Below, in pieces: positions 12,505 through 57,644 of a DNA stretch of 64,000 bases (within the stretch, counting starts at the first letter, position 1; every line of letters begins with the position of its first letter). The notes beneath the pieces were generated by a model, which saw only the letters and a program-made list of their open reading frames with translations, was not told the origin of the DNA and did not search any database. The translations under genes and the position numbers were made by a program. The stretch is from Alkaliphilus metalliredigens QYMF (GTDB taxonomy: Bacteria > Bacillota > Clostridia > Peptostreptococcales > Natronincolaceae): NCBI RefSeq assembly GCF_000016985.1, contig NC_009633.1, positions 4,817,539 through 4,881,538 of the forward strand, given 5' to 3'.

Positions 12505-12506
12505 CA

Positions 12507-15330: not shown

Positions 15331-15357
15331 TTGCATTCCCCCTAGAACTTTTATAAT

Positions 15358-16089: not shown

Positions 16090-16457
16090 TTTTATCCTCC
16101 TCACAAAAATTGCTCATTAAATTACCGAAACATATTTTAATGTTAACTAATAAAGAATCTTGGAAACACCTTGTATCCTGTTGCTTTTTTATCACATCCC
16201 TTTTTAATAATGAGTCAATCAATTATATAGACTGTTAAATTTTTGTGTTAAATAGACTTCTGTAGCTCTTATTATATTCTAGTTTCACCTACAGGGATAA
16301 TAAGAGTTAGTTATGATGTATAATGATCACTTATACTTGATTAAAAATTAACAATTTCCATTAGCGTAATTGGCTTTTCCAAAAAAAATATTTCATGATA
16401 TAATAACAATTAGTATTCAACGATAAAATGAGACTTACTTTAGAGGGAGCGGATCAA

Positions 16458-41049: not shown

Positions 41050-41352
41050 TTGGTAAACGAAATGCCCCCTTCAAGAAAGCCTAGGCGTGTGTTTACACCA
41101 GAATTTAAAAGTCAGATGGTTCAACTTTACCATAATAGAAAAAGAAAATGTGACATTATCAAAGAATATGATGTTGCTGCATTCGTTCTTGATAAATGGA
41201 TTAAACAAGCGGAAACAACAGGTTCTTTTGAAAAGAAGGATAATCGGAGCACCCAAGAACAAGAAATCATTAAACTCAAGAAAGAGTTAAAACAACTGCA
41301 AATGGAGAATGACATTCTAAAGCAAGCAGCATTGATCTTAGGACAAAGGTAA
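41050..41352 (+). CDS. IS3-family transposase OrfA
   Basis: The 100-residue protein has an HTH (KPRRVFTPEFKSQMVQLYHN; CDIIKEYDVAAFVLDKWIKQ) and a leucine-zipper coiled coil (EIIKLKKELKQLQMENDILKQ, split) ending ALILGQR. It matches IS3/IS150-group OrfA. It looks intact, but the partner OrfB is broken, so the element is dead. Confidence 0.88.
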   Translation: MVNEMPPSRKPRRVFTPEFKSQMVQLYHNRKRKCDIIKEYDVAAFVLDKWIKQAETTGSFEKKDNRSTQEQEIIKLKKELKQLQMENDILKQAALILGQR

Positions 41353-41354
41353 AT

Positions 41355-41960
41355 GTGATAAAAAATAATGTACACAAATACCCAATGTCAGCAATGTGCA
41401 AAGTCTTACAAATCTCAAGAAGTACGTATTATTATGAAGCTACACAAAATTCTGATGAGAGCCTATTAACCAAACATATTACTGATATATTTAAATCTAG
41501 TCGCAATAATTATGGCACTCGTAAAATTAATAGAGAACTCCTAAAAAGAGGATATCAAGTTTCACGCCGCCGTATTGGCAGGATTATGAAACAAGAGGGA
41601 CTTATATATAATTACACCATTGCTCAATTTAAACCAACTACTGACAAAACTAATTAATCTAAAGTAGCTAATTTAGCAGATCTCAACTTTGATGAACAGC
41701 TTCATTTAAATGTCGTAGTAAGCTATTTGACCTATGTAAGGGTAGGTATGAGTTGGAACTATATCTGTATTCTTATTGATTTATTTAACCGATAAATTAT
41801 TGGATACATTAGATGGCTTGAAATTTCAACTAGATGACTATGTTAACTGGTTTAATAACCATAGATTCCATTCATCACTAGGATATTTATCACTAACTCA
41901 GTATAAAAGTAATACCCTTAAAAAAACTGTCCAAATAAGTAAATAAGTGTTGACAGTCCA
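41355..41960 (+). pseudogene. Broken IS3-family OrfB (DDE transposase)
   Basis: The HTH_21/N-terminal part is readable (NNVHKYPMSAMCKVLQISRS, then YYYEA). A stop at 41657 interrupts it. Fragments of the rve core (HLNVVVSYLTYV, SWNYICILIDLFNR) and the C-terminal end (WFNNHRFHSSLGYLS) remain after a large internal deletion. Confidence 0.85.
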
Positions 41961-42924: not shown

Positions 42925-44226
42925 CTATTTAAAGTTATATCTGATTGGGTATAAGTCAGATAGCATATTCGTAGCATTTATATTTATTCTATTTTCAACA
43001 TCTGCCCCCTCCGTTCCTGACAGTATCTCTGGGTTATAGATTAAAACACGTTTTCCTTGAATATGTTTAGGAATATTTAGTTTCAATATTTTAGGATTCT
43101 CTCCACTGCTGTAAATAAGGATATCCTCACCATCACCACCTATAGGCGTCCTGCTAATTACTCTATCATCAACATCTTTTAAAGTAACCATTCCCTCTTC
43201 ATTAAGCTCGAATCTGAACCTACCATTATCTGTTTGAATTACTCTATATAAGTGAGGCGCTTTGGTTTCAGTACTTTCACCAAACACTAATGTTGCTCCT
43301 GCCACAAGTATAAATGTTAGCATCAGACTAAGTACTGATGTTTTCTTAAATTTCATAATAGACACGATTCTTTCTTCAGTGGCATTTTTGCTGAAACTGC
43401 TATATAAAGGGGTACATTTAGTTCTACCTTCCGCCATTTCAATTAAGGATAACGCATAATGAGATTTTGTGCTCTCACCGAATAGTTTGATTACCTCCTC
43501 ATCGCAGGCAATCTCCAAATCTCTATTCATTAACACATACAATACCCATACCATAGGGTTGAACCAATGTAAGCATAGTGCAATGATCAGTAAAAGCTTC
43601 CATAGAGCATCAAATCGCTTAATATGTATACATTCATGAGCAAGAATATATCTGACTTCCAGTTCGTTGCTGTAATCCATAGACTTTGGAAGTATAATTT
43701 TAGGCTTTAGTATGCCATAGGTGAGGGGTGTTGTCACTTTATCGGATACTAGAATTCTAATGAGTCGATTTGTCTTTTGCTCACTCAACCATTTGTCAAT
43801 CAAATTATTCCCTTTAATTGGCAACGCTGTTCTAATTTCTCTATAGCTTCTATAAAAGGATACGACAAAAAATAGAGCAAGCAAAGCGATACCCGCAATC
43901 CAAAGTATCATCATGGGTTCTATGTACCAAGGTTTATTCACTGCCTCCACATATTCTGTATTTCCATAGATAAACACTCTTGCATCGTTGCTATTTGTCC
44001 CTCCGACTTCTAGTGCAAATTTTTCCTTTAAGCGATTAATCACGTTATACAGACCAAATTTTGAAGGAATGGAAAAAGGAATGATCAATCTAGATAAAGC
44101 AATTCCCCAAAGTACAATAAAGGTTGTTTTAGGTAGCCTGTTAATGGCAAGTCCTCTTATAACAACAACCATCAGAATAAGAATGCCGGCTGAGACACTC
44201 ATTTGCAACAGATTCATTGTATTCAC
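42925..44226 (-). CDS. BlaR1/MecR1-like M56 peptidase without penicillin-binding domain
   Basis: The 433-residue protein has N-terminal TM helices (~8-27, 33-53, ~108-128). The zinc motif ILAHECIHIKRFDALW (HExxH, ~200) follows, and a further TM near 305. The C-terminal ~120 residues are extracellular and beta-rich (YRVIQTDNGRFRFELNEEG). They lack SxxK and KTG motifs of the penicillin sensor. Family role: signal-triggered cleavage that inactivates the BlaI repressor. The gene follows blaI with a 1-bp gap. The inducing signal is unknown. Confidence 0.88.
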   Translation of the reverse strand: MNTMNLLQMSVSAGILILMVVVIRGLAINRLPKTTFIVLWGIALSRLIIPFSIPSKFGLYNVINRLKEKFALEVGGTNSNDARVFIYGNTEYVEAVNKPWYIEPMMILWIAGIALLALFFVVSFYRSYREIRTALPIKGNNLIDKWLSEQKTNRLIRILVSDKVTTPLTYGILKPKIILPKSMDYSNELEVRYILAHECIHIKRFDALWKLLLIIALCLHWFNPMVWVLYVLMNRDLEIACDEEVIKLFGESTKSHYALSLIEMAEGRTKCTPLYSSFSKNATEERIVSIMKFKKTSVLSLMLTFILVAGATLVFGESTETKAPHLYRVIQTDNGRFRFELNEEGMVTLKDVDDRVISRTPIGGDGEDILIYSSGENPKILKLNIPKHIQGKRVLIYNPEILSGTEGADVENRININATNMLSDLYPIRYNFK

Positions 44227-44227
44227 C

Positions 44228-44587
44228 TCACTTCAACTTATCAACAATTTTTTTTAATTTGTCAATTTGCTCTTTCGTTAGGTTTTTTTCATTAACAAAT
44301 GTCGCAAAGAACATTTCTGTAGATCCATCAAACATTTTGTTAATCAGTTCTTCTGTTTCCTGCTCCTGGATCTCTTCCTTGGAGAGCAGCGCCCTGCATA
44401 TAAAATTAGGTTCCAATCTTTCAATGGCATCTTTGTCAATACATTTTTTGATGACAGTATAGGTGGTATTTCTATTCCAACCTGTTTCTTCTTTTAAAAT
44501 AAGGGCAAGCTGACCTGCCGTCAAATTACCTTCTCTCCATAGCACTTCCATCACCTTTAGTTCGGAATCGAATAATTTAATTTTCAT
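44228..44587 (-). CDS. BlaI/MecI/CopY-family repressor
   Basis: The ~119-residue protein has a winged helix (KLFDSELKVMEVLWREGNLT, NRNTTYTVIKKCIDKDAIE) and a C-terminal dimerisation helix set. ATG 44587 is 8 nt after AAGGAG. Three ACTAT-N4-ATAGT-like dyads overlap its promoter, consistent with autorepression. A second promoter of the same design drives the transporter operon. blaI is transcribed with the BlaR1-like gene. Confidence 0.92.
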   Translation of the reverse strand: MKIKLFDSELKVMEVLWREGNLTAGQLALILKEETGWNRNTTYTVIKKCIDKDAIERLEPNFICRALLSKEEIQEQETEELINKMFDGSTEMFFATFVNEKNLTKEQIDKLKKIVDKLK

Positions 44588-44606
44588 ATTCATCTCTCCT
44601 TACTTG

Positions 44607-44678
44607 ACTATTTCAATAGTTGAATACAAGTCAATACTATCGCAGCAGTAATAACATGTCAATTACTATTTCAATCGT
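44607..44678 (-). promoter_or_regulatory. blaI promoter with three BlaI-type operators
   Basis: On the minus strand -35 TTGACA (44657-44662), 17-bp spacer, -10 TAGTAT (44634-44639). Dyads are at 44607-44620 (ACTATTTCAATAGT, perfect), 44636-44649 and 44665-44678 (imperfect). They cover the -35, -10 and leader. Confidence 0.8.
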
Positions 44679-44709: not shown

Positions 44710-45536
44710 TTAGCTCACATCATCCATCATGTATTTTTTTAGTATGGGGGATATGTAAAAATTGGTAATCAATCCTATGGTACTCATTGTTATAAAGAAA
44801 AACAATAACATTCCAACTGTCGGGAATAGTAACAGCGGTAAGGCGCTCAATATAAAGCATAAAGTCAGTACTCCCAGATTTGGAAAGAATCTGATTATAG
44901 AAAATATAAAAGCATTCTGATAGATCTGTTTGATCGAAAGTCTGAATGTAATCAGCATTGGGTACATATACATATGCATCATTAAAAAGAAGAGAAATAG
45001 TAATATGATCAAAAAAGTAATTGCGGTGAAAAATATGCTTTCTGTACTTATTCCAAAATAGAAGTTGATAGCAATTCCAATGACCAACACAACAACCAGG
45101 TCAATCAGACATATAAAAATGCTTTGTCTCGCATTGCTCAAAGCATGCTCCTTAAAATCCCCCCATAAAAATGCATGCTCTTCACCAGCGAATTTTTTCA
45201 GTACATAAGTGAATCCAGCCTGCGCTGGACCTATTGTCACAACTGGTATGCATACTAAAATAGCACCCATGGCAAAATAAAATACCAACTCATAAACACT
45301 ATTTCCCATTGGGCCTCCGTTTTTATTCAACGTTGGTAAAAAAACTGTGCCACAAAGGGCATGACAACAACTGCTGGCAGGTTAAATACAAAGAACAGCA
45401 TGTTCAACTTAACAAGGTGCCAGAACTTGCGAAAAAATATATGGAAGAAAACCACGATACGCGGTTTCGACAGAGTATTTTTAGGAATATCCATTTCCGT
45501 TTTTGTGTCCTTAAACATACCGAAAATACGTAACAT
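44710..45536 (-). pseudogene. DUF624 (YesL-like) membrane protein, split by a frameshift
   Basis: The first frame (45536-45327, ~69 aa) has FFHIFFRKFWHLVKLNMLFF and the second (45330-44710, ~206 aa) begins after a TTGA overlap and contains IGPAQAGFTYVLKKFAGEEHAF. Together they equal one normal DUF624 protein (~270 aa, 5-6 TM). A one-base shift near 45328 separates them. DUF624 proteins accompany sugar ABC importers. It could also be translated as two coupled ORFs. Confidence 0.65.
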
Positions 45537-45626
45537 AAGAGATCATTCCTTTCTAATTGCACTCAACGATGGAAACACCTGTTAATTACAAACTCATTTT
45601 ATTATTTAGTCATGCTAAATGAACAT

Positions 45627-46739
45627 TTAGTTCGTAATTGTTTTTTCCGTTTCTCTGTCAAAAATATGGACTTTACTGGGATCTAATGCGAGTCTTATGG
45701 TATCCCCTACTTTTATCTGTTTTTTAGGATTAACTCTTGCAATAAAGCCGGTATCTTCAATTTTTACATGCAAATGAATTTCAGAACCAAGCATTTCAAC
45801 AACTTCTACCTCTGCTTCTACAACACAATCTGCAAGTGAATCAAGGTATCTCTGCTCATCAAATACATTTTCAGGCCTGACTCCCATGATTACTTCCTTG
45901 CCTATATAATCCAGTTCCTCTAGCTTCCTTGCCTTTTCATAGGGCAACTTTATGCTATTTCTGCCAAATTTCAGATGTACTTCCTCTCCGAATTTCTCTA
46001 CCAGGACTTCCATGAAGTTCATCTGAGGACTTCCTATAAATCCGGCCACAAACAAATTATCAGGCTTTTCGTAAACAGTTTGTGGCGTATTAACTTGTTG
46101 GATATACCCGTCCTTCATCACAACAATCCGTGTCCCCATTGTCATGGCTTCTGTCTGATCATGAGTAACATATATGAAGGTTGTTTGTAGCTCTCTGTGA
46201 AGCTTGCTGATTTCAGTCCTCATCTGGCCCCTCAATTTCGCGTCCAGGTTTGACATCGGTTCATCCATGAGGAATACCTTTGGTCTGCGTACAATTGCAC
46301 GACCCAGTGCCACCCTTTGCCTCTGACCTCCAGATAGCGCCTTTGGTTTTCTGTCAAGAAATTGCTCTATGTCAAGTATTTTAGCAGCTTCATATACACT
46401 TGCTTTGATTTCATCTTTTGGGGTTTTTCTTAACTTCAAGCTGTACGCCATGTTTTCAAAAACAGTCATATGGGGATACAGCGCATAGTTCTGGAAAACC
46501 ATAGCAATATCCCTGTCTTTAGATTGTACGTCGTTCACCAGCCTACCGTCTATCGATATTTCTCCTTGGGTTATTTCTTCTAACCCTGCAATCATCCTAA
46601 GTGTAGTAGTCTTTCCGCAGCCGGAAGGACCAACAAAAATGATAAATTCCTTATCTTCAATATCCAGATTGAAATCCGCAACTGCAACAACATTACCTTC
46701 AAATTTTTTTATCACATGTTTTAAATTTACACTGGCCAT
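45627..46739 (-). CDS. MsmX/UgpC-type ABC transporter ATP-binding protein
   Basis: The ~370-residue ATPase has Walker A GPSGCGKTT (~38), signature LSGGQRQRVALGRAI (~135), Walker B VFLMDEPMSNLD and H-loop YVTHDQTEAMTMG. C-terminal regulatory TOBE-type domain (~240-370). It energises carbohydrate-uptake permeases such as the MalF/MalG pair upstream. ATG 46739 is 9 nt after AGAGGAGG. It lies after a hairpin that may reduce its expression. Confidence 0.94.
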   Translation of the reverse strand: MASVNLKHVIKKFEGNVVAVADFNLDIEDKEFIIFVGPSGCGKTTTLRMIAGLEEITQGEISIDGRLVNDVQSKDRDIAMVFQNYALYPHMTVFENMAYSLKLRKTPKDEIKASVYEAAKILDIEQFLDRKPKALSGGQRQRVALGRAIVRRPKVFLMDEPMSNLDAKLRGQMRTEISKLHRELQTTFIYVTHDQTEAMTMGTRIVVMKDGYIQQVNTPQTVYEKPDNLFVAGFIGSPQMNFMEVLVEKFGEEVHLKFGRNSIKLPYEKARKLEELDYIGKEVIMGVRPENVFDEQRYLDSLADCVVEAEVEVVEMLGSEIHLHVKIEDTGFIARVNPKKQIKVGDTIRLALDPSKVHIFDRETEKTITN

Positions 46740-46806
46740 AATCATCATCCTCCTCTTACTTCAATTAATCACCCATTTTATTCAGTTTACTGATTATTAG
46801 AAAATA

Positions 46807-46830
46807 TATCAGGGGCTTAAACCCCTGATA
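46807..46830 (-). promoter_or_regulatory. Intra-operon hairpin before the ATPase gene
   Basis: TATCAGGGG and CCCCTGATA form a 9-bp stem; a short T-rich run follows on the minus strand. It may partly terminate transcription after the binding-protein gene. Confidence 0.6.
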
Positions 46831-46866
46831 CATTTTCATTTTCCACCCACTATACTACCCTCTTCC

Positions 46867-49293
46867 TTACTCTCCAAGATAGGTATTTACCCTGTCCTGC
46901 ATCAGTCTTGTTGTCTCTTCTACAGATTTGTCTCCAGAGAAAAATGATCTCGTCTCATCCTGTACAATACGACTAATGTTTGTATCTACATTGGCATATG
47001 TTCTTAATCCCGAAATAAATTCATTTATATAATCGATATCCGTTTGGGACATCAACGCTTGGCTTACTGTAATACTACTGTCTCCGCTTCTTAGCATCAT
47101 TTTTGCATTTCCACTTTGAGACAACGCTACAGCCTGTTGGGCTTTCTGTTGCTGTGCAGCTTTGTTGACCGAAAAGCCTCCCATTGCCTGTTGCGATTGT
47201 CCTGCTCCTCCCTGCATTGCCCCTCCTTGCATCTCCTGGGATTGGATCTCATCAGATAAAAGCGTTTTTAAGAATTCCCAGCTTTCCGATACATATTCGG
47301 AATTTCTGTTGATTGCATACATTGAATTAGATGAAAATGTTCCTCCACTAGGACCACCTCCAGAGGGCATATTATAAAGACTTAATTGTTCTTTAAATGC
47401 AGCTTTCATAAATCCATACATATTATAACCGCTAATACTATAAGGATAAAAGACGATGGACTCCCTGCCTGCTGCTTCTAGGATCGAAATCATATGGTTT
47501 TTAACGCTGCTATCGGTAAGACTTCCGTCATCAAAGGCCTTGATAGTATTCAACAAGTCAACAAAGTTTGGTGAAGTGAAGTTGGCATTCTTCCTATCAA
47601 CATCAATGTAATTGCTGTAGCTGTCTCCGGTAAATAGATTCAACAGTTCCATAGAGCTTACAGAAGGTAGCGCTGCTCGACTTCCATTACTGTCACTTTT
47701 TTGAGTCACTTTCTCAGCAATTGATTTAAAATCATTCCAAGTCCATTCACTATCATCAATTATGATTGATTCCTGATTAAGGATTCCTTGATTGGCCATT
47801 AAAACATTGAATGTAAATTCGATGGGCAGTACATACAGGCTTCCATTGGATTTCAAAGCATCAAAAATGTTAGTGTGGTATTTGTTCATGTCGAAGCTAT
47901 TGTCACTAGCCATCATCTCGCTTAAATCTACCAGTATGTTTCTAGAAATATAGTTCTCATATTGCAGCCCAGCCACGGATATAATATCAGGTCCCTTTCC
48001 CGAAAGTATTTGGGTATTCAGATTTGTTATATAGGTTTCATAGTCATCACTTGGATATGTCTGTATATCAATCCTGTACCCAGGGTTCTCCCGCTGGAAT
48101 TGGCCTGCTGCTACTTCAAGTGCTCTATTGGATCCAGGAACTGAAATCGTAATGACTTCTTGAGTTTGTACGATGCTGTCTCCACTCTGTATTGAGTACT
48201 TATACAATTCATATTTTATAAAGTCTGCAGAATCAACGGTTGCTTCACTAGCCCCACCTTTCATCACAGGTTGGTCAGAAGAATTACTATCTGGGGTATC
48301 TTGGGTATTTGGAGTATTTCCTCCAGATCCCATGTTGATTCTCCCTGGGTCTGCAGGTACCGATGTAGTGGACACATAGATATTGCCCTCGCCATCAATA
48401 CTCATATCAGAAATATTATATCCGCTGGCCATAATGGTGTAGGATTTGAAATCTATAGCAGTCCCCATGAGGTTTCCCGAGGAATCATATTTGGTAATGT
48501 CTTGGCTAGTTAGATAGTATATACTTTCATCCTCTTTTGAAAACCTAATTCTATTGACTCCCATCATAGAGATTCCACTTGAATTCTGACCTGATAAATC
48601 AATGGACCAAATGGGATTGCCCGTTGAAGCATCTAATTTTTCAATACTTCTCTTCCCCATGATGAGGCTTGCTGCAATAATATTACCCTCGGAATCGATA
48701 TCAATACTTTCGTATCCTTCGGATCCCAAGGTTTTTACCGGCTGTCCCTCCTTGTCAAGGACTTGAATACTCTTTGAAGGATCTGATATGTAAATATTCC
48801 CATTACCATCTACTGCGATATCAGAAAAACCCATACTTTGCATTCTGACACTTCCGCTACTTCCGGTATTTGAAACGGTCCCAAGGTCAACAGTCTTTAG
48901 GGTATCTCCTTGGGGACTGATTACTGTAAGTTTTTGTGAAGTATTGTCACCTTGGGTTTCTGCTGTCACCGCATAAATGTTGTCCTCTTCATCAAGGGTA
49001 AATGCTCTGACATTTCCCAAAAAGCTGATTGAATCACCTACTGGGTTACCTTCCTGATCTAAGGTTACAAATCCAGAATTTGTTCCATAGCCCCTGTCAA
49101 AAATCACCAGTTGGTTTTGAGAATTAACTCGGCCCCCCCCTGGCCACATAAGGTCTGAATGAATTCCTATTTCCATTTCTGAATATGTATCCACACTTTG
49201 TTGTTGAGAAACGTTGCTATTCCCCATCCCGCAAGCTGCAAGGCTCACTGTAATCATCACTACCATTAATAGACACATTATTTTTTTCAACAT
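46867..49293 (-). CDS. Lipoprotein fusion: beta-propeller-like domain plus ABC solute-binding domain
   Basis: The 808-residue lipoprotein has a lipobox SLAAC (Cys ~20). Residues ~35-300 contain repeated GNxYxxD/DxxGNIY units (DEEDNIYAVTAE, DGNGNIYISDPS, DSEGNIIAAS, DGEGNIYVSTTS), typical of NHL-type propellers. From ~380 it is an extracellular family-1 solute-binding protein (VAAGQFQRENPGYRIDIQTY; KGPDIISVAGLQ). Such fusions are unusual. Near residue 700 there is a Gln/Gly-rich stretch (QEMQGGAMQGGAGQSQQ). It overlaps the upstream gene by 77 bp. Confidence 0.88.
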   Translation of the reverse strand: MLKKIMCLLMVVMITVSLAACGMGNSNVSQQQSVDTYSEMEIGIHSDLMWPGGGRVNSQNQLVIFDRGYGTNSGFVTLDQEGNPVGDSISFLGNVRAFTLDEEDNIYAVTAETQGDNTSQKLTVISPQGDTLKTVDLGTVSNTGSSGSVRMQSMGFSDIAVDGNGNIYISDPSKSIQVLDKEGQPVKTLGSEGYESIDIDSEGNIIAASLIMGKRSIEKLDASTGNPIWSIDLSGQNSSGISMMGVNRIRFSKEDESIYYLTSQDITKYDSSGNLMGTAIDFKSYTIMASGYNISDMSIDGEGNIYVSTTSVPADPGRINMGSGGNTPNTQDTPDSNSSDQPVMKGGASEATVDSADFIKYELYKYSIQSGDSIVQTQEVITISVPGSNRALEVAAGQFQRENPGYRIDIQTYPSDDYETYITNLNTQILSGKGPDIISVAGLQYENYISRNILVDLSEMMASDNSFDMNKYHTNIFDALKSNGSLYVLPIEFTFNVLMANQGILNQESIIIDDSEWTWNDFKSIAEKVTQKSDSNGSRAALPSVSSMELLNLFTGDSYSNYIDVDRKNANFTSPNFVDLLNTIKAFDDGSLTDSSVKNHMISILEAAGRESIVFYPYSISGYNMYGFMKAAFKEQLSLYNMPSGGGPSGGTFSSNSMYAINRNSEYVSESWEFLKTLLSDEIQSQEMQGGAMQGGAGQSQQAMGGFSVNKAAQQQKAQQAVALSQSGNAKMMLRSGDSSITVSQALMSQTDIDYINEFISGLRTYANVDTNISRIVQDETRSFFSGDKSVEETTRLMQDRVNTYLGE

Positions 49294-50689
49294 TTTTTAC
49301 ATCACTTTCCTTTCGATTTGTAATTTGCAAAATATTTAAAAATATAAAAGCCCAGGCCACTAGAATACTTTTCACATCCAGTATAAAGGGCAGTTTTATC
49401 ATAAAAGCTACCACAGCTAGCATACCCAGAGAAAGAAGAAAGAACAAAGCAAATATTAATGTAAGTCTATTTGAATCCACATTTAATGTTTTAATCTCTC
49501 GGAAGCCGGTATATAAAAGTAGGGAGCCCAACACAATAGAAATCCAAAAAAGCAGGCTCACCATTATATTAGTAGCATTAAGAATCAACTCGGATTGGGG
49601 TGGGACATAACCCATATCTTGTATACCACCTTGAATGACGCTTTTAATCAAATCCAAATAATAGGAAATATTGATTAACTCATCAGGAATATAATGAGAT
49701 GGAATATAGGGGCTGAATCTAATTCCTAGCCAAAACAATATAATTCCTAATGATACCCCTGTCATTTCAAAGAAGCAGGTTGCGATTATCCTTCGATGGT
49801 ACTTAATCACATTTGTCAAATAATCCGTCTTACACCCATCTCTTATCAATGAATATAACTTTATGATTAAGTTCTTAGCATGCACCATCAATATAAAAAT
49901 TGATATCATTCCAATAATAAATACGAAGAGAAGTAACAATTGTTCCATTAATTCATACCTCAAATTAAAGTCAATGATATTATAATTTGAAGGGTTTTGC
50001 CCTATTTGCCTTAGGGCAGTTGATACATTGGTGACATTCTCATCCAACCTTCCAGCATTGTCAGTCTTTATCTGGAGAGCCGTAATCCGAGACGTACTAT
50101 CTATATCTAATATGACTTCACTTGGTATATATACCTTCGGCAAGCCTTCATCCGTTACTTTTTCAATAAGGGTATCATCCTTTTTCACAACCCCAATGAT
50201 CCTAAAGACGTTACCAAAGATATCAATATTTTTTCCTGTGGCGTTTACTGTTTTAAATAATTTCCAGGCCAACTCCTCATCGATTACTGCAACCATTGCC
50301 CCTTCTTCTTCCTGTTGCCGTGTAATAAAGCTTCCCTCTTCAATCATTAAGCCATAAAACAGAGGGTACATGTGATCTACACCCGTTAGTCTGACAGGTA
50401 GAGTGGAACTGTCGTTGGAAACCGATGTATTGATACTACCTGACTGTACAGTATAGCTGATTTCTTCTGTTGCAAGCTCCCTTTTCAGCCTTTTTATATC
50501 ATCAATTGAAAAGGCATTGATACCCTGAAGATCTATGTGGTTCTTAACAGACACCAACACCTTTTCCATGGAATAGTCTCCATTCAACTGAGAAGATTCT
50601 ACAACCAGCCCATTTCCAAGGACAATCAATGAAAGCATCAATAAAATTCCTGAGAAGGTTAGAATCCATGCAACTTTTCTTTTTCTCAT
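49217..50689 (-). CDS. ABC-type permease with MacB periplasmic-like domain
   Basis: The 490-residue protein has an N-terminal TM (~8-28), then an extracellular MacB_PCD-like domain (~30-235; FYGLMIEEGSFITRQQEEE, VAVIDEELAWKLF, IFGNVFRIIGVV). Five or so further TM helices follow from ~250. It fits the FtsX/MacB exporter-permease class, but no dedicated ATPase is adjacent. It is preceded by an HlyD-type adaptor gene (14 bp). The pairing suggests a tripartite-like exporter or envelope sensor inside an import operon. Confidence 0.75.
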   Translation of the reverse strand: MRKRKVAWILTFSGILLMLSLIVLGNGLVVESSQLNGDYSMEKVLVSVKNHIDLQGINAFSIDDIKRLKRELATEEISYTVQSGSINTSVSNDSSTLPVRLTGVDHMYPLFYGLMIEEGSFITRQQEEEGAMVAVIDEELAWKLFKTVNATGKNIDIFGNVFRIIGVVKKDDTLIEKVTDEGLPKVYIPSEVILDIDSTSRITALQIKTDNAGRLDENVTNVSTALRQIGQNPSNYNIIDFNLRYELMEQLLLLFVFIIGMISIFILMVHAKNLIIKLYSLIRDGCKTDYLTNVIKYHRRIIATCFFEMTGVSLGIILFWLGIRFSPYIPSHYIPDELINISYYLDLIKSVIQGGIQDMGYVPPQSELILNATNIMVSLLFWISIVLGSLLLYTGFREIKTLNVDSNRLTLIFALFFLLSLGMLAVVAFMIKLPFILDVKSILVAWAFIFLNILQITNRKESDVKNVEKNNVSINGSDDYSEPCSLRDGE

Positions 50690-50703
50690 GATAATCTCAC
50701 TCC

Positions 50704-52083
50704 TTAATTGACCAGCATGACTCGCGAGCCGTTGGATAACGGTTTATTACTATTAGAAACAACCTGATCTCTAGAGCTTATGCCACTCAAAACTGCGGTT
50801 TTTATATTATCGGATTCACCGATGCTGACAGATACTTTTTCTACATAAAATTCATTTCCAAGTGGACCCTCCCTCTCTTTAAGTACATATACAAAATCTC
50901 CATCACTATCTTGGCCTACTGCTGAATTGGACACTAGCACATTATAAGATCCAATATTTTTTCTTATACTTGCTGTTCCAATTTCTCCACCAATCAACTC
51001 ATCAGAGTCAATGTCAATGATAACATCCTTTTTCACACCAATTTCTTGCTGGTTATCTCTAATTTGATTTACTTTCCCTTGTATATTCCTATTGTTTAAT
51101 GAATTTATTGATATTTCAGCTGTATCACCCACTTCCAGATATTCCCCTGCACTTATATTAACAGTGGCAATAAATTGAAATCCTCCTTGGATATCTGCAA
51201 TTTTGTATAGTGGTTGAGAAGTATTTGCCGTCATACCCTCTGAATAATACAACTCTGTAACGATACCATCACTGGGAGCCGTCACCGTACCCATGTTGAT
51301 TTCCTTCGCTAACTCAGCTATTCTTCTCTCTGCCATATCTATGTCTAACTTTGTGATTTCGATATCTCGGTTGTTGTTTTCAATATCTCTATTGTTATTT
51401 TCAATATCTCTGTTATTCTCTCTTATTGCTTTATCCCTATTGTTTTTTGCTAACTCATAGTCCATCCTAGCACTGTCAAGACTCATTTTTGCATCGGCCA
51501 GTTCATTTGCAGATATAGCACCTACTTCATCATAAAGAACTTTATTATTATCGTAATTTCGCTGGGCCTTATCTACATTCTGCTGGGCAGTTTGAATTGC
51601 TTTGTCTAGGTTCATCAAATCCTCTGGCAAATTGGATTCTTTGAGCTTTTCGCCAGCTTGTATGAGCTTTTCAAGATGTAATTTTTTCTGGGTATATTGA
51701 TCCTGCTGATCCTTCAATTGATTTTCTATATCAGCTGTGTCCAATGTTAACAGTGTTTGCCCTTGATAAACTTCGTCCCCAACCTCCACCATAACTCCCG
51801 TCACCCTCATACTGGTATGAACATACAAATCGCGGATTGTTTTTGCCACTACATTCCCGGTATCTGTCACTTCCTTCATAAGTGCCCCACTTGTAGGCGT
51901 TTCATATGTTACCTTTGGCAGTGTCAAGTTATTTATGGTTTTTGAAAAAAAGGTTAAAAAAAGCATTACCATAAGAAATATTACCGTCGCCTTTCCGATT
52001 ATCTTTCTTTTCTCGATATTTGCATTTGCATCCGCATCTAATGCCTTCATATTCTTTGCCATACCTCCAATTCTAATTTTCAT
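50704..52083 (-). CDS. HlyD/MFP-type efflux adaptor (RND/MacA-like)
   Basis: The 459-residue protein has one N-terminal TM (~32-50), a split biotinyl-lipoyl domain (VGDEVYQGQTLLTLDTAD, ~100; GTVTAPSDGIVTELYYSEG, ~265) and a long coiled-coil hairpin between (~115-255). The hairpin contains a repeated 7-residue unit (ENNNRDI x3), encoded by 21-bp tandem repeats near 51365-51420. C-terminal beta-barrel domains follow. In Gram-positives such adaptors work with MacB-type permeases. The start is uncertain, with no good ribosome site. Confidence 0.88.
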   Translation of the reverse strand: MKIRIGGMAKNMKALDADANANIEKRKIIGKATVIFLMVMLFLTFFSKTINNLTLPKVTYETPTSGALMKEVTDTGNVVAKTIRDLYVHTSMRVTGVMVEVGDEVYQGQTLLTLDTADIENQLKDQQDQYTQKKLHLEKLIQAGEKLKESNLPEDLMNLDKAIQTAQQNVDKAQRNYDNNKVLYDEVGAISANELADAKMSLDSARMDYELAKNNRDKAIRENNRDIENNNRDIENNNRDIEITKLDIDMAERRIAELAKEINMGTVTAPSDGIVTELYYSEGMTANTSQPLYKIADIQGGFQFIATVNISAGEYLEVGDTAEISINSLNNRNIQGKVNQIRDNQQEIGVKKDVIIDIDSDELIGGEIGTASIRKNIGSYNVLVSNSAVGQDSDGDFVYVLKEREGPLGNEFYVEKVSVSIGESDNIKTAVLSGISSRDQVVSNSNKPLSNGSRVMLVN

Positions 52084-52118
52084 TAATCTAATTTCTATGC
52101 CTTAAAAGACTACCTATA

Positions 52119-53018
52119 TCAACCCTTAAGTCCGGAAAGTTGAATCCCTTTCACCAGGTAGTTCTCTCCATAAAGGAAAATCAACAACATCGGTAGCATA
52201 TAAATCGTCGACGCAGCAAAAGCAATCCCCATCTCCCCTTGGTTGATGTTCGACAGATAAACTGACAACGGATGCATATTCACGTCCTGCAGAAATATTA
52301 ACGGTTGCTCCACCATATTCCAGTTATCTATAAAAACCAAAATAGAAAGTGCAGCAAGTGCTGTTTTTGACATGGGAAGGATAATACCAAAAAAAATCTT
52401 AAACTGGCTGGCTCCATCCATCTTTGCAGATTCGATATAAGCATCCGGAATGTATACCATAAACTGCCTCATTAAAAAAACACCAAATGTACCAAATATG
52501 CCAGGCAGTATGATGGATGAATAACTTCCTATAAGCCCCAATTGGTTGGCCATGATATAATTGGGAACCAGCGTGACCTGGAAGGGCATCATCATGACAA
52601 TAATATAGGTAAAGAACAGCTTATCGCGGAAAACAAACTCTATTTTGGCAAAAGCGTATGCGGCCATAGATGCAACAAGCATCTGCCCCAATATGATTGG
52701 AACGACTATTATCGCTGAATTCCAAAACTTGATAAGAAACGAGGTCCTTTCAATAAGAGCCGTATAGTACTGTGTGATAGTCACCCTGTCTGGTATTAGT
52801 TTTACATTGGCATACTTGCTAGAGAATACATTTTCCTCTTGACTTGAGTTGTTTGAAGTTACCATACTGTAACTGGTTTCTATTTCTTGTTCGCTCATAA
52901 AAGAATTGGTAATTGTCAGTACAAGAGGAAATAGAACCACGACAACCATAGCAAACAGTATAACTGATAGAACTGTCTTTCCAAGTCTTTTCTTTATATA
53001 CCGCCTCATCTGCATCAC
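52119..53018 (-). CDS. Carbohydrate ABC transporter permease, MalG type
   Basis: The 299-residue protein has six TM helices and the EAA motif YIESAKMDGASQFKIFFGIILP (~190-212, in two parts). An insert near residues 45-70 (SYSMVTSNNSSQEENVFSSK) between the first TM and the core is longer than usual. It pairs with the MalF-type permease 4 bp upstream. Confidence 0.92.
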   Translation of the reverse strand: MMQMRRYIKKRLGKTVLSVILFAMVVVVLFPLVLTITNSFMSEQEIETSYSMVTSNNSSQEENVFSSKYANVKLIPDRVTITQYYTALIERTSFLIKFWNSAIIVVPIILGQMLVASMAAYAFAKIEFVFRDKLFFTYIIVMMMPFQVTLVPNYIMANQLGLIGSYSSIILPGIFGTFGVFLMRQFMVYIPDAYIESAKMDGASQFKIFFGIILPMSKTALAALSILVFIDNWNMVEQPLIFLQDVNMHPLSVYLSNINQGEMGIAFAASTIYMLPMLLIFLYGENYLVKGIQLSGLKG

Positions 53019-53022
53019 TTCA

Positions 53023-53901
53023 TCATCCTCCTATTGTACTGCTCACTTTTCTTTCAATCTTGAATAATAATAATACCAGTATGTAAATGAAAATAGCCAT
53101 AATAAAAGCAGCCGATGTAAGCATCTGGTAATCTAAGGATGCAAACTTGTTGTTCATATAATGCTGCAACATATAGATGCTATCATGAGGATATGCACCT
53201 GAAATCAAATACACCTCCCTGAACACCTTAAAAGAATTGATGATGGACATTACAAATACAAAAAACGTAGTAGGCGTAAGATAAACCAAAGTGATACTGG
53301 TAAACTTGCGCCAATTGCTGGCTCCGTCAATATCAGCTGCTTCATAATACTCTAATGGTATATTCTGAAGGCCTGCCAAGAAAAGTACCATATTATACCC
53401 GATATTCTTCCATAAATAGAGTATCACAACTATCATCCTGGCAAAATCAGTCTTCATCCAGTCTATAGGTGATAATCCAAGCCATATAATAAAAGCATTG
53501 AGGGATCCATTCATATCAAACAATATCTGCCACACCAGAACTACCGATGCCACTGGAACCACCAAGGGTATAATAAATCCCATACGTATAATATTCCTAC
53601 CATAAATTTTCCTATTAAGCAGTAGCGCAAGACCCAGGGAAAATAGAATATTGAGCGGGACAGCGATCACCGTAAAAATAAGGGTATTATATCCCGCTTT
53701 TTGAAAAACAGGATTCTTTATGAGTTCGATATAGTTTGCCAATCCAACAAAACTGCCACCAATGGGACTGTCTACAAATGAGTAATAAAGCCCTCCTATA
53801 AATGGTATGAAGAAAAAAATCAAAAACCCAATAAGACTTGGTGCCAGAAATAATAGTGCCGTTTTATTATCATATTTTTTTCCTGTATTTAATACTGACA
53901 T
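53023..53901 (-). CDS. Carbohydrate ABC transporter permease, MalF type
   Basis: The 292-residue protein starts at ATG 53901, 7 nt after AGGGGG; longer frames lack a site. It has six TM helices (first ALLFLAPSLIGFLIFFFIPF) and the EAA motif YYEAADIDGASNWRKFTSIT (~185). It is the first gene of the BlaI-type-operator operon that continues to the DUF624 gene. Confidence 0.92.
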   Translation of the reverse strand: MSVLNTGKKYDNKTALLFLAPSLIGFLIFFFIPFIGGLYYSFVDSPIGGSFVGLANYIELIKNPVFQKAGYNTLIFTVIAVPLNILFSLGLALLLNRKIYGRNIIRMGFIIPLVVPVASVVLVWQILFDMNGSLNAFIIWLGLSPIDWMKTDFARMIVVILYLWKNIGYNMVLFLAGLQNIPLEYYEAADIDGASNWRKFTSITLVYLTPTTFFVFVMSIINSFKVFREVYLISGAYPHDSIYMLQHYMNNKFASLDYQMLTSAAFIMAIFIYILVLLLFKIERKVSSTIGG

Positions 53902-54007
53902 CATCCATCCCCCTGTGGTATCCTTCACTTTGAAGCCATATACCTTATTTTGATTATGTACATACATCTTCCTTTTATGACTATTGATATAGTCATATTG
54001 CAATTAA

Positions 54008-54052
54008 ATACTATCAGAGTAGTCATCACTTGTCAATGACTATTCTGATAGT
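54008..54052 (-). promoter_or_regulatory. Promoter of the transporter operon with two BlaI-type operators
   Basis: On the minus strand -35 TTGACA (54031-54036), 17-bp spacer, -10 TAGTAT (54008-54013). Dyads at 54010-54023 (ACTATCAGAGTAGT) and 54039-54052 (ACTATTCTGATAGT). Layout and many bases match the blaI promoter at 44634-44678. Confidence 0.8.
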
Positions 54053-54137: not shown

Positions 54138-54806
54138 CTATTTCATTAAAAGTAGTTTTCCACCATTCATACCCCATACTTCATCCGCAACAGAAGATAC
54201 CTTTTTGGAGTGGGTAACGATTATTACACATTTACCTTCATTATGGGCCAGCGAAGTTAATATAGATAAAATGTTCTCTTCCGTTTCAATATCTAAGTTC
54301 CCAGTGGGTTCATCTGCAATGATAATGTCAGGATTATGAGATAAAGCTCTTGCAATACCAACTCGCTGTTGTTCGCCGCCGGAAAGTTTGAGGATTTTAC
54401 GGTCAGCGGTTTCTTTATTAATTCCAACTTTTTCAAGCAGCTTATAAGCGACTTTTTTCTTATTATTTTCCTTTGTTTTGCTAATGCACATCGACAACAC
54501 AATATTTTCAACAGCTGTTGCGTTTGTCAAAAGATTATAACCCTGAAAAATAACGCCAATACTTTCAGCTCTGTATTTATCACGGTCAATCTGTGAAAGT
54601 GGATTGCCGCCAAAACTTATTGTACCGTCCGTACAATTATCAAGCCCTGAAATAAGAGATAAGAGGGTAGTCTTTCCTGAACCTGACTTGCCCATAATCA
54701 CGTAGAGCTTACCACTGTTAAACTCCGCCGAAACTTTTTTTAATACGGTTTTTGTTGTGCCGCTGTATTTATAGGATACATTTTCTATTGTTAAAAGACT
54801 CATCAT
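54138..54806 (-). CDS. MacB-type ABC exporter ATP-binding protein
   Basis: The ~222-residue ATPase has Walker A GKSGSGKTT (~37), signature LSGGEQQRVGIARAL (~140), Walker B IIIADEPTGNLD and VTHSKKVSSVAD. It belongs to the LolD/MacB/BceA group. ATG 54806 is 8 nt after AAGG. It is 10 bp downstream of the FtsX-type permease gene and forms a two-gene exporter with it. Likely induced by the adjacent TCS. Confidence 0.93.
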   Translation of the reverse strand: MMSLLTIENVSYKYSGTTKTVLKKVSAEFNSGKLYVIMGKSGSGKTTLLSLISGLDNCTDGTISFGGNPLSQIDRDKYRAESIGVIFQGYNLLTNATAVENIVLSMCISKTKENNKKKVAYKLLEKVGINKETADRKILKLSGGEQQRVGIARALSHNPDIIIADEPTGNLDIETEENILSILTSLAHNEGKCVIIVTHSKKVSSVADEVWGMNGGKLLLMK

Positions 54807-54816
54807 AGTATTCACC

Positions 54817-56229
54817 TTAATTCCTTTCTGAAAGTATCTTTATAGGCTCGTATTTTGTGATATACATGATACCAGCAACGCTTGATATACCTGCAAGAAT
54901 AAGAGAGATTAAAATAATCTGTGTAATGGCGTCCGCACTTAAATTTACCTGAAGTTCTGAAAGTGGTTTAACGTCTGATGAAAATGTTGGAGCTCCAAGT
55001 CCTGTTCTACCCGACGATGGCACGCCGCCATTTGTATTACTGTTTTCTTCAGCAAGTTCAATTTGACCTGCAAGCATGCTATCCGCCACAGGTTGCGATG
55101 CCGCTAATCCTACGCCTAAACCAAGCACCAGGCATATCACTGTGATAACAAGCATTTCTGTAAGCAGTCCAAAAGCTACCTTAGCTTTTTTCATACCCAT
55201 TGCACGAAGGACACCGATTTCGTATTTACGTTCTCGAATCGCAAGACTTGATAAAAGAATAAGAACCATTGAACCGAAAATCAAAACAACAATCAAGAAC
55301 GTATTTGTTACCCCGGCAAGTCCTTCAACAGGGCCTACAACTTTTTTATATCCGGCTTCGTCAGTGACAACATTGTAATAATCAGCCAATCCCTTTTCCC
55401 TGAGTTCTTTTTCATAAGCAGGAAGCAGTGTGGGATCTTTCAAAAAATATTGCACCGAAACACGTCCGTGTACATTAAACATTTCCATATTAACGGCCGT
55501 ATCAAAACCGGTAAGAATCTCGTTATTTCTATTTTCCATCGAAGATATTACTTCAAGATTTGAACCAAGCATAGTATTGTCCATATAAATACCTGTAATA
55601 GTCAAGCTATGGGTCATTGGGTCATTTTTGTAATAACTGTCCACTTCAATGGTGTCACCAACGGATAAGTTGTTAAGGTCTGCGTATTGTTGGCTGACAA
55701 TACATTCATTGAGATTTTTATACATTTCACCGCTGGTAATTTTACGTGTTGAATTTTTGAAATCTTTGTCTGCTTCTGGGTTATCTGTCGCAATGATTTT
55801 ACCTTTTAATGGGACTGTTTCAGGGTTTTTTGTTCCATCCGCCCTTATTGCGCCGCTTATAAAATCAGAAATAAAATCATCCATTTCACTTTCACTAAGT
55901 GAAGACAGCTTTCTCGGTGAAATATCAATTGTTGCCGAAAAGTTTGCGCTCTGCAACAAATCAGACTTTCCAAATTCTATTTGCTGCTGGGGCGTGAGTT
56001 CTTTGTAGCTCTCAGCTACTTTTTTGTTTTGAAGCATTTCAAAATTGGTTTCAATAGAAACCTCCGAACCAAATCTCGACTTATAATCTGCAATGATAGC
56101 CGATGTTGTTGTGTTAATGATAATAGACACGGCTGTTGTGAGAATGATGGCAAAAATGATAATTGCCATTAAAATGTTTCTGCCCTTATTTCTTCCGATG
56201 TTCTTTACGGCATTTGCAATAATATACAT
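54817..56229 (-). CDS. FtsX/MacB-type ABC exporter permease
   Basis: The 470-residue permease has an N-terminal TM (~20-42), a ~250-residue extracellular MacB_PCD domain (ISPRKLSSLSESEMDDF etc.), and three C-terminal TMs with the FtsX motif ERKYEIGVLRAMGMKKAKV (~335). It includes a Gly/Ser/Asn-rich loop near 400. AAGGAG precedes the ATG. Upstream there is a PhoB-like box next to the -10, so the TCS at 56.5-58.3 kb probably activates it. Confidence 0.92.
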   Translation of the reverse strand: MYIIANAVKNIGRNKGRNILMAIIIFAIILTTAVSIIINTTTSAIIADYKSRFGSEVSIETNFEMLQNKKVAESYKELTPQQQIEFGKSDLLQSANFSATIDISPRKLSSLSESEMDDFISDFISGAIRADGTKNPETVPLKGKIIATDNPEADKDFKNSTRKITSGEMYKNLNECIVSQQYADLNNLSVGDTIEVDSYYKNDPMTHSLTITGIYMDNTMLGSNLEVISSMENRNNEILTGFDTAVNMEMFNVHGRVSVQYFLKDPTLLPAYEKELREKGLADYYNVVTDEAGYKKVVGPVEGLAGVTNTFLIVVLIFGSMVLILLSSLAIRERKYEIGVLRAMGMKKAKVAFGLLTEMLVITVICLVLGLGVGLAASQPVADSMLAGQIELAEENSNTNGGVPSSGRTGLGAPTFSSDVKPLSELQVNLSADAITQIILISLILAGISSVAGIMYITKYEPIKILSERN

Positions 56230-56274
56230 TGTTTGTTCGCTCCTTTAATCAGTATTTGTCTGTCCACATGACAT

Positions 56275-56308
56275 AGTGTAGCATATGGATTGTTAGGTTT
56301 TCGTTAGG
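56275..56308 (-). promoter_or_regulatory. Promoter with PhoB-type direct repeat before the exporter operon
   Basis: TGTTAGG (56291-56297) and CGTTAGG (56302-56308) are 11 bp apart, the classic spacing for OmpR/PhoB regulators. On the minus strand they lie 10 bp upstream of a TACACT -10 (56275-56280) in place of a -35. Confidence 0.65.
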
Positions 56309-56392
56309 TTATAAAGAGAGGATTATTTGTTTCATTTTATCTTCTTCTTTATAATTTTATTTGTAAGCCCGTACTCAGTATAAAGGAATGAT

Positions 56393-56410
56393 TGTTAGAT
56401 TAACGTTAGG
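56393..56410. promoter_or_regulatory. Second PhoB-type direct repeat
   Basis: TGTTAGA (56393-56399) and CGTTAGG (56404-56410) repeat the same 11-bp-spaced motif about 100 bp upstream. A second response-regulator site is likely. Confidence 0.55.
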
Positions 56411-56430
56411 GAATAGCATAACGCACAAAA

Positions 56431-56461
56431 AAGACGGACAACTTCCTTCGTTGACCGTCTT
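56431..56461 (-). terminator. Terminator of the TCS operon
   Basis: AAGACGG-CAA pairs with TTG-CCGTCTT around a loop and is followed by TTTTTTGTG on the minus strand. Confidence 0.8.
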
Positions 56462-56495
56462 GTAATTTGCGTGGAAATGCTGTGAAATTATTCTT

Positions 56496-57644
56496 TTATT
56501 GGGGAAGCTGTATTGAGATTTTTGTACCTTTCACATTTTCACTCGAAACGCTGATTGTTCCTCCGTGCCTTTCTATGATGGATTTTACAATAGATAATCC
56601 CAGTCCTGAGCCTGCAATTTTTCGAGAGCGTGAACCGTCCACCCGATAGAAAGCATCAAATATAAAGGGTATATGCTCGGCTGGAATTCCTATCCCGGTA
56701 TCTTCAACATCAATGCTAACGCACTTATTTGTTTTGCTTCCACGAACTGTAATACTTCCTTTCTCGCGGTTATATTTATATGAATTATCGATCAGGTTAA
56801 AAAAATTTCTGTAAAGAAGCGCCGCGTTTCCATGGAATGATATAGCGTCACATTCGATATTATAAGTGATTCCGCGATATTCATATACCGGCGACAACTC
56901 ATCAAATATTGTCTCAAACATGACATCTAAATATACTTCTTCCTTTAACTCATCCGTTTCCTCATTTGGAGAAGCCATAATTAATAAATCGTTTACTACT
57001 TGCGTCAGCCTATCAACGCTTGCTTCCATCATATGGGCGTTTTCCTTATATTCTTCCAATGTGGTGGATTTGTCGATTTTAAGCACCTGTATCCCCGCTT
57101 TCATTGTTGCAAGGGGTGTTTTAAGCTCATGTGCAGCACTAGCCGAGAAGCGTTTTTGCCTGTTAAATGCTTCTTCTAAGCGCTCAAGGGCCTGATTGAA
57201 ACTCTTTGTCAGACTACTCACTTCATCATGCGATAAACTTTCAGTTAATCTTTGAGATAAGTCCCGTTCGTCAATTTCAGACACCTGTTTGCTCAAATTT
57301 TTGACAGGCCGCAGGGCTTTCCCGGAAACAAAATATACAAGTCCTGTTCCGACAGTAGTTAGCGCAAGAAAAACCATTATGCTTTTCAAATCAAAATCTC
57401 TTTTGGCTGTTCCAAAACGGGTACTCTCGTTTTCTATTTCGTTATCGTCTATACCTCGAATTACTATATCGTCCGAATTATCATCGGCTTTGGTTATGCT
57501 GATTGGACCGTTTATTAAGGGCATAAGAGTTCTTTGGGCGTTTAATATGGAGAAGGCGGTTAATGCCGCAGAGCATATTATCAGCACTATAGCTACGAGT
57601 ATTGTAATTCGCCATTGTAAAGTTAATTTCATAAATAGCTTCAT
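56496..57644 (-). CDS. Sensor histidine kinase
   Basis: The 382-residue kinase has two TMs (~12-32, ~88-108) around a small ~55-residue sensor. HAMP (~110-160), HisKA with SASAAHELKTPLATMKAGIQ (~170), HATPase (FFNLIDNSYKYNREKG; GSGLGLSIVKSIIERHGG). It overlaps the response-regulator stop by 4 bp. Small sensor domains like this are common in antibiotic- or envelope-stress TCS; inferred to control the neighbouring ABC exporter. Confidence 0.94.
   Translation of the reverse strand: MKLFMKLTLQWRITILVAIVLIICSAALTAFSILNAQRTLMPLINGPISITKADDNSDDIVIRGIDDNEIENESTRFGTAKRDFDLKSIMVFLALTTVGTGLVYFVSGKALRPVKNLSKQVSEIDERDLSQRLTESLSHDEVSSLTKSFNQALERLEEAFNRQKRFSASAAHELKTPLATMKAGIQVLKIDKSTTLEEYKENAHMMEASVDRLTQVVNDLLIMASPNEETDELKEEVYLDVMFETIFDELSPVYEYRGITYNIECDAISFHGNAALLYRNFFNLIDNSYKYNREKGSITVRGSKTNKCVSIDVEDTGIGIPAEHIPFIFDAFYRVDGSRSRKIAGSGLGLSIVKSIIERHGGTISVSSENVKGTKISIQLPQ

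Follow-up and report, generated by a model that had tools for sequence, protein, structure and literature searches.

The window, a 64,000-nucleotide stretch of the Alkaliphilus metalliredigens QYMF chromosome (NC_009633.1, positions 4,817,539 to 4,881,538; labelled WIN among our loci), carries seven neighbouring genes, all on the minus strand, coding for the importer permeases MalF and MalG, an HlyD-type adaptor, a MacB-like protein, a solute-binding protein (SBP), an MsmX-type ATPase and a MusI/DUF624-like protein. The positions of the seven genes given by the original prediction were confirmed, as were the intergenic gaps of 4 bp (MalF-MalG), 35 bp (MalG-HlyD) and 14 bp (HlyD-MacB) and the 77-bp overlap of the MacB-like gene with the SBP gene. 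Judging from gene order and protein sequence, MalF-MalG-HlyD-MacB is a conserved cassette in Bacillota and not a random mixture, we recognise no motor linked to its MacB-like protein, and the "exporter" half of the locus is probably not an exporter. We consider it moderately probable that the locus encodes a substrate-induced ATP-binding cassette (ABC) importer of the MalFGK2 type bearing a motorless, MacAB-derived extracytoplasmic assembly, with its SBP feeding a BlaR1-type receptor.

The cassette was compared in 52 loci (L### denotes cassette or control loci). MalF-MalG stood directly before HlyD in 49 of them, in one of these (L100) as a MalG-HlyD fusion; the exceptions were L053, with the order HlyD-MacB-SBP-MalF-MalG, L075, where MalG was present and MalF was not called, and L111, where the locus was cut. 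MacB directly followed HlyD in 47/52 loci, the others being L066-L068 (no MacB found), L073 (contig end) and L100 (MacB after the fusion). The HlyD-MacB gap was 27 bp or less in all 47 adjacent pairs, and the two genes overlapped in 24, in 19 of these by exactly 4 bp. The check put forward in the original prediction, a search for conserved co-occurrence across Firmicutes, was thus passed, with a conserved gene order.

When the order (148 genomes) was searched with the MacB-like protein as query, 15 matches were strong (E 4e-16 or better); they came from 10 genomes, our own included, and all 15 were located behind MalF-MalG-HlyD. The matches listed from a profile search over the phylum (398 genomes) included five at E 5e-70 or better, one of them that of our genome, and the next one was partial (4e-27); the four strong matches from other genomes also lay in a cassette. 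Scanning a collection of 84,980 species for HlyD yielded at least 36 loci (L041-L076), a lower bound because two peptide patterns were used, and these included loci of Anaerovirgula, Geosporobacter, Ruminiclostridium, Herbinix, Desulfosporosinus, Paenibacillus and metagenome-assembled clostridia. The other loci were found via MacB, MalF or SBP searches, and L122, found later, is outside the 52-locus counts. Because loci were picked via HlyD or MacB, the presence of these genes was selected for in part of the 52. Ranking by MacB alone was not clean, since the divergent cassettes L097, L098 and L100 scored below ordinary MacBs, and few of the weak MacB matches in the order and phylum searches were fetched.

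A test independent of the HlyD/MacB selection was carried out with MalF in ten genomes picked for holding a cassette, which contained 63 homologues. The top 20 (183.8 bits or more) were all in cassettes, five of them new to the analysis, and none of the next eight (143.9-152.8 bits) had HlyD or MacB in the stretch fetched. Among the 28 of the 63 matches examined, this MalF subfamily therefore appears to go with HlyD and MacB. Pairwise locus distances were also correlated among the four proteins (r 0.84-0.96, 46 loci). The opposite situation, an HlyD/MacB pair living independently elsewhere and lying beside importer genes only at random, was not what we found in 20 loci of ordinary MacBs: a LolD-type ATPase adjoined MacB in 19 and was one gene off in the remaining one, HlyD was recognised in 18, and MalF-MalG was seen in none within the stretch displayed. 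Fixed order, a MalF subfamily confined to cassettes among the 28 matches, the MalG-HlyD fusion and overlapping HlyD and MacB genes (24/47) together give strong support to the idea that the parts work together. A chance neighbourhood of unrelated transporter genes, for which we found no point in favour, is refuted by the 49/52 order, the MalF result (20/20 vs 0/8) and the fusion, and has practically no likelihood.

The MacB_PCD domain was matched in all 15 strong cassette MacB-like proteins, taken from the 148-genome search, and in the short form of L071; the FtsX domain was matched in none of the 15. The ATPase-coupling motif ERT(R/K)EIG...A(L/I)G was present in 0/40 cassette MacB-like proteins, which were the MacB open reading frames (ORFs) of at least 300 aa among 44 loci after L066, L067, L068 and L073 had been dropped, as compared with 20/20 ordinary-MacB controls (16 high-ranking ones from the phylum search and four from the order search). 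Moreover, in the 47 adjacent loci HlyD and MacB had no ATPase gene between them and none was labelled directly after MacB, and in the alignment seven MacB-like copies (L069-L072, L074-L076) stopped after the second transmembrane segment (TM2), lacking TM3 and TM4. A functioning exporter half, which the original prediction had implied, is hence not supported, given the loss of the coupling motif, and a functioning MacAB exporter was rejected because of the missing motif and FtsX domain.

Alternatively, the HlyD/MacB pair might be a working exporter that borrows its ATPase from another locus, such as the LolD-type one at 54138-54815. The window protein is predicted (pLDDT 68.9, pTM 0.60; moderate confidence) to fold like a complete MacB, matching 5gko (Z 19.7, rmsd 5.2, 331 residues aligned) and also 5xu1, and a LolD-type ATPase with an FtsX permease occurred near 5/52 loci, which would suit such borrowing. 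We judge it quite improbable, in view of the absent coupling motif and FtsX domain, the seven copies without TM3 and TM4, the lack of any ATPase gene separating HlyD from MacB where a distinct MacB gene follows HlyD (47 loci), and the fact that the ATPase at 54138-54815 has an FtsX permease of its own.

Concerning HlyD, the window protein has a transmembrane segment, a lipoyl/hairpin part and a membrane-proximal domain. In L100 a single ORF contained MalG (47-263, the main match), the HlyD membrane segment (277-327) and the membrane-proximal domain (331-416). MalG at its C-terminus and HlyD at its N-terminus both face the cytoplasm, so the topology of this fusion would fit. HlyD of L034, encoded by a separate gene, had a similarly reduced form without lipoyl and hairpin parts, and these parts seem dispensable because they are missing in both loci; in seven metagenome-assembled clostridial loci (L069-L072, L074-L076) HlyD was enlarged to 633-687 aa. 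From these arrangements HlyD appears to belong next to MalG. In L110, a gene overlapping the end of MacB (12276-13865) showed OEP (TolC-like) and Cu_amine_oxidN1 matches, and its product is a possible wall-bound partner of HlyD; L111 had a gene of similar size (14859-16451).

The importer engine looks intact: a simple EAA pattern was present in 46/51 MalF and 45/52 MalG of the cassettes, and Walker A and LSGGQ in 17/18 MsmX. MsmX was encoded within five genes of 18/52 cassettes, and an SBP was recognised near 44/52. Among the structure matches listed, those nearest to the SBP part were mostly oligosaccharide-binding proteins (CbpC, for instance), which points to an oligosaccharide-like ligand.

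In a sister type of the cassette, the protein encoded before MalF was a single chain consisting, in L054, of an M56 peptidase (9-352), a propeller-like region and an SBP (697-1002). Seven full-length M56-propeller-SBP fusions were found in 6/148 genomes, all at a cassette; six were directly before MalF and one was in tandem just upstream of BlaI. The window protein is collinear with the L054-type fusion. In the model of the fusion (pLDDT 65.5) the middle region (389-687) was all-beta, the SBP was predicted with fair confidence and the membrane part poorly. The beta-propeller/SBP fusion of the original prediction therefore stands for its SBP domain; the propeller was only hinted at by Reg_prop, SBBP and NHL matches below the Pfam cut-off, and is supported because the collinear relative was modelled as all-beta in this region. 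None of the 50 structure matches listed for the fusion model confirmed a propeller fold, all being binding proteins or constructs thereof.

The 14-mer ACTA-N6-TAGT, a candidate BlaI-type operator, was found at four sites in the window, three before MalF, 29-30 bp apart, and one before BlaI, and the promoter-like sequence TTGACA-17-TAGTAT was identical at MalF and BlaI. The promoter scan overall was at chance (43 sites vs 44.6 in shuffles), and the operator count was not strong on its own (4 vs 1.23 expected, a number reached in 3/100 shuffles), and for this reason the operator claim is carried by the phased spacing and by a genome-wide search for pairs. Pairs of this spacing occurred in the 4.93-Mb genome only at the MalF promoter, as they did in G111 and G121; in G069 they were found at MalF, at BlaI and at one further place, and in G123, whose two cassettes near these coordinates are without BlaI, there were none. 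The reversed pattern, used as a control, gave 0 in four genomes, including our own, and 1 in G111. In each of the five loci where BlaI and BlaR1 are separate genes, three sites preceded MalF and one or two preceded BlaI, and L048, which starts near MalF, had four before MalF. In this genome the cassette seems to be under the control of a receptor akin to the penicillin sensor. Concerning the original proposal of a trans-envelope sensing or glycan-handling machine, it is the sensing part that gains support from the BlaI-type operators and from the M56-propeller-SBP fusions.

We found no beta-lactam sensor domain in the window M56 protein, its sole Pfam match at E 0.01 being Peptidase_M56. A passage of PMC9834060 relates the sensor of Staphylococcus aureus BlaR1 to class D beta-lactamases and describes a Mycobacterium tuberculosis BlaR1 homologue without such a class D-related sensor. 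In L041 (17259-19048) and L042 (17624-19175), a lipoprotein gene and a gene for a Cu_amine_oxidN1 protein adjoined the BlaI/BlaR1 genes by the cassette; the two proteins share a similar C-terminal repeat, and in L041 their genes lie behind three more operators.

The flanking genes, among which 84 same-strand ORFs in 44 loci were unlabelled, were scanned in a selection, and in this selection neither an enzyme that would point to a common substrate nor a resistance gene recurred across cassette types. Radical S-adenosylmethionine (SAM) clusters with CXXX repeats, of the ribosomally synthesised and post-translationally modified peptide (RiPP) kind, were found beside the divergent cassettes L034 (301-2457), L099 (11922-14354), L100 (2212-5029) and L122; the maturase matches were above the cut-off, and a Cys-rich CXXX-repeat ORF was legible by eye in L100. 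In L122 the ORF after HlyD (335 aa) was not recognised as MacB. The maturase family TIGR04115 had 8 matches in 7/393 genomes of the order, of which four lay beside MalF-MalG-HlyD (L034, L099, L100, L122), three did not (L119-L121) and one was on a contig too short to tell (L123). With four of the eight maturases by cassettes and three elsewhere, the RiPP link is a subset and not a rule. No RiPP maturase was matched in 398 genomes of the phylum, but the controls gave no match there either. The CXXX-repeat maturase locus of L119 (5956-13749), which is without MalF-MalG, encoded a further ABC protein besides a LolD-type ATPase, and its BlaR1/BlaI-like genes gave weak matches (50 and 18 bits). Two cassettes of Paenibacillus had aminoglycoside adenylyltransferase-like genes downstream of their SBP genes (L060, 14258-15082; L064, 14261-15097).

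Several of these neighbours bear on the idea that the cassette is a resistance or stress-sensing module, in which the transporter, in the manner of BceAB, would use flux to sense a bacteriocin or some other compound active on the cell wall, and would not serve nutrient uptake. The BlaI/BlaR1-type control, the lipoprotein and Cu_amine_oxidN1 genes by the L041 and L042 cassettes with the three additional operators of L041, the adenylyltransferase-like genes of L060 and L064, the RiPP genes adjoining four divergent cassettes and the response-regulator genes near 18/52 loci are all consistent with it. However, the likeness of the SBP is mostly to oligosaccharide-binding proteins, the engine of the importer appears intact and no resistance gene recurred across cassette types among the flanking genes scanned; sensing of this kind is possible, though we think it rather unlikely. 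It is more doubtful that the permeases and the adaptor work in the outward direction, delivering a glycan or a modified peptide to the cell exterior with HlyD as the conduit. HlyD is classically an export adaptor, the protein encoded after MacB in L110 has OEP and Cu_amine_oxidN1 matches, and RiPP maturase clusters lie beside four divergent cassettes, as such a route would suggest, but SBPs and EAA-type permeases are typical of importers, an MsbA-like ABC exporter already belongs to each of the RiPP clusters L034, L099 and L100, and HlyD can lose its hairpin (L034).

In the importer that we favour, MalF, MalG and the MsmX-type ATPase would form the engine, to which two extracytoplasmic subunits of a MacA-MacB exporter have become permanently joined. 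The MacB-like protein, its ATPase link gone, would persist as a membrane-anchored MacB periplasmic domain and, together with HlyD placed beside MalG, could cover the outside of MalFG as a passive vestibule or collar. The SBP may dock at this collar, bringing the oligosaccharide-like ligand; in most cases it is a lipoprotein, and in many it carries a fused propeller-like region. In the window type, BlaI bound to three phased operators would repress the operon; ligand binding would be read by the M56 protein, directly in the fused type and by contact with the SBP or the transporter in the window type, and the M56 peptidase would then inactivate BlaI, opening the operon. Of this scheme, the sequences show the conserved cassette, the lost coupling motif, the operator pattern and the fusions, while the complex, the direction of import, the ligand class, the binding of BlaI and the window's route from SBP to M56 are inferred. 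A terminator-like hairpin between the SBP and MsmX genes, T-rich on the coding strand as well (by eye), might lower the MsmX transcript. More tentatively, the cassette may represent a separate class of ABC importer, in which MalFG works under a motorless MacA-MacB-derived collar and the SBP both delivers the ligand and, as a BlaR1-type sensor, triggers inactivation of the repressor; if so, transport and induction would be one machine.

A number of observations weigh against this proposal. The MacB-like protein is still predicted to have the whole MacB fold, and both models, that of the MacB-like protein and that of the fusion, are only of moderate confidence. There is a single case of the MalG-HlyD fusion, and its source is a metagenome-assembled genome; in L066-L068 no MacB was found, suggesting that MacB is not always needed. 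The M56 protein of the window itself lacks an SBP domain. In the sister type with the fusion, the 14-mer was present before MalF in 0/6 loci and before BlaI in 3/6 (L027, twice, L054 and L057), being absent from L058, L059 and L028. Regulators vary among the cassettes, with BlaI near 11/52 and the response-regulator genes near 18/52 (window included), and BlaR1 control is therefore not part of the core. The nearest neighbours of the four proteins agreed in just 17/46 loci, a weak test because the distances are close. Finally, a divergent cassette subset is linked to RiPP genes, for which reason the ligand may not be a sugar everywhere.

The cassette is like MalEFGK2/MsmX-type (CUT1) importers in its two BPD_transp_1 permeases with EAA loops, MsmX-type ATPase, MalE-like SBP and putative MusI/DUF624-like protein; unlike them, it adds HlyD and a motorless MacB-like protein in fixed order, and its SBP frequently has a propeller-like region attached, in some cases together with M56. 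MacB-type (type VII) ABC exporters with an adaptor include MacA-MacB, YknXYZ and Spr0693-0695. The cassette shares with these exporters an HlyD-type adaptor beside a MacB periplasmic-domain protein with a predicted MacB fold, but it is without a cognate ATPase gene, FtsX domain and coupling motif and has MalF-MalG directly upstream. With BlaR1-BlaI and MecR1-MecI it has in common a Penicillinase_R repressor, an M56 peptidase with HExxH and phased palindromic sites at the promoter; in contrast, no beta-lactam-binding sensor domain was found, the target is an importer, and the sister-type chain runs on into a propeller-like region and an SBP. Sensing modules of the BceAB-BceRS type also link a membrane protein of the MacB/FtsX superfamily with a signalling system, a resemblance only, since here an importer engine and an SBP are present and the MacB-like protein is without its own ATPase.

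No single part is new; it is the combination for which we found no description. Searches of an open-access library gave no description of the gene set, the motorless MacB, the MalG-HlyD fusion or the M56-propeller-SBP receptor, and descriptions elsewhere are possible. The locus looks like an efflux pump that has been dismantled and rebuilt into an importer, and it bears on the role of the MacB periplasmic domain and of HlyD adaptors without a driving ATPase and an outer membrane. The M56-propeller-SBP fusion suggests that proteolytic signalling of the BlaR1 type, best known for beta-lactams, can read other ligands via a sugar-type binding domain, and orphan M56/BlaI systems could then have ligands assigned through their soluble sensor part.

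The features of the window are collected in Table 1. The unit extends past the range of the original prediction, with BlaI, a BlaR1-like M56 peptidase, three operators before MalF and one before BlaI.

Table 1. Genes and putative control elements of the cassette region (window coordinates; operators are predicted)
Feature	Position	Strand	Basis
BlaI-type operator 1, MalF promoter	54039..54052	.	14-mer pattern
BlaI-type operator 2, overlaps -10 element	54010..54023	.	14-mer pattern
Promoter-like TTGACA-17-TAGTAT of the cassette	54008..54036	-	Promoter scan
BlaI-type operator 3	53980..53993	.	14-mer pattern
MalF-like importer permease, cassette-specific subfamily	53023..53901	-	BPD_transp_1 E 3.7e-16; EAA loop EAADIDGAS
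MalG-like importer permease	52119..53018	-	BPD_transp_1 E 2.6e-12; EAA loop ESAKMDGAS
HlyD/MacA-type membrane-anchored adaptor	50704..52083	-	HlyD_D23, Biotin_lipoyl, HlyD_3; 15-sequence alignment
MacB-like protein, 490 aa, without ATPase-coupling motif	49217..50689	-	MacB_PCD E 8.3e-18, no other Pfam match
Lipoprotein, 808 aa: propeller-like region and sugar-type SBP	46867..49293	-	SBP_bac_1 391-684 E 3.2e-20; lipobox LAAC
Terminator-like hairpin between SBP gene and MsmX	46807..46830	.	Scan, listed on plus strand
MsmX/UgpC-type ATPase	45627..46748	-	NCBIfam UgpC 490.7 bits, above cut-off; ABC_tran, OB_MalK, TOBE_2
MusI/DUF624-like membrane protein gene, frameshifted	44710..45540	-	Frames compared with intact relatives
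Promoter-like TTGACA-17-TAGTAT before BlaI	44634..44662	-	Promoter scan
BlaI-type operator before BlaI	44607..44620	.	14-mer pattern
BlaI/MecI-type repressor	44228..44593	-	Penicillinase_R E 4.1e-22
BlaR1-like M56 peptidase, 433 aa, HExxH intact	42925..44226	-	Peptidase_M56 E 2.8e-52; HECIH aligned

The MalF start at 53901, as originally predicted, was preferred over the longest-ORF start at 54003 because the third operator falls within the 54003 extension. The 77-bp MacB/SBP overlap is unusual, the corresponding genes of L041-L046 overlapping by only 8-20 bp, and the C-terminal extension of the window MacB-like protein is missing from these loci. For the "DUF624" protein, the predicted ORF is present; its 206 aa are the C-terminal portion of a frameshifted gene, and the family assignment stayed below threshold (MusI, 44.5 bits vs a cut-off of 160). 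The frameshift sits in a run of T in the region 45320-45350, with the N-terminal part in another frame, and relatives hold intact genes; it may be a real mutation or a sequencing error. Neither the 206-aa ORF nor the intact L043 relative had a Pfam match (at E 0.01 for the latter).

Just upstream of the cassette, at 54138-58318, the window encodes all parts of an FtsX-type ABC transporter, which comes with a two-component system of its own. These genes were considered as part of the system and left out because a recognisable copy was near only 5/52 cassettes (WIN, L041, L042, L045 and L028). On the other side, at 41050-41657, two adjoining ORFs resemble, by eye, pieces of an IS3-type transposase.

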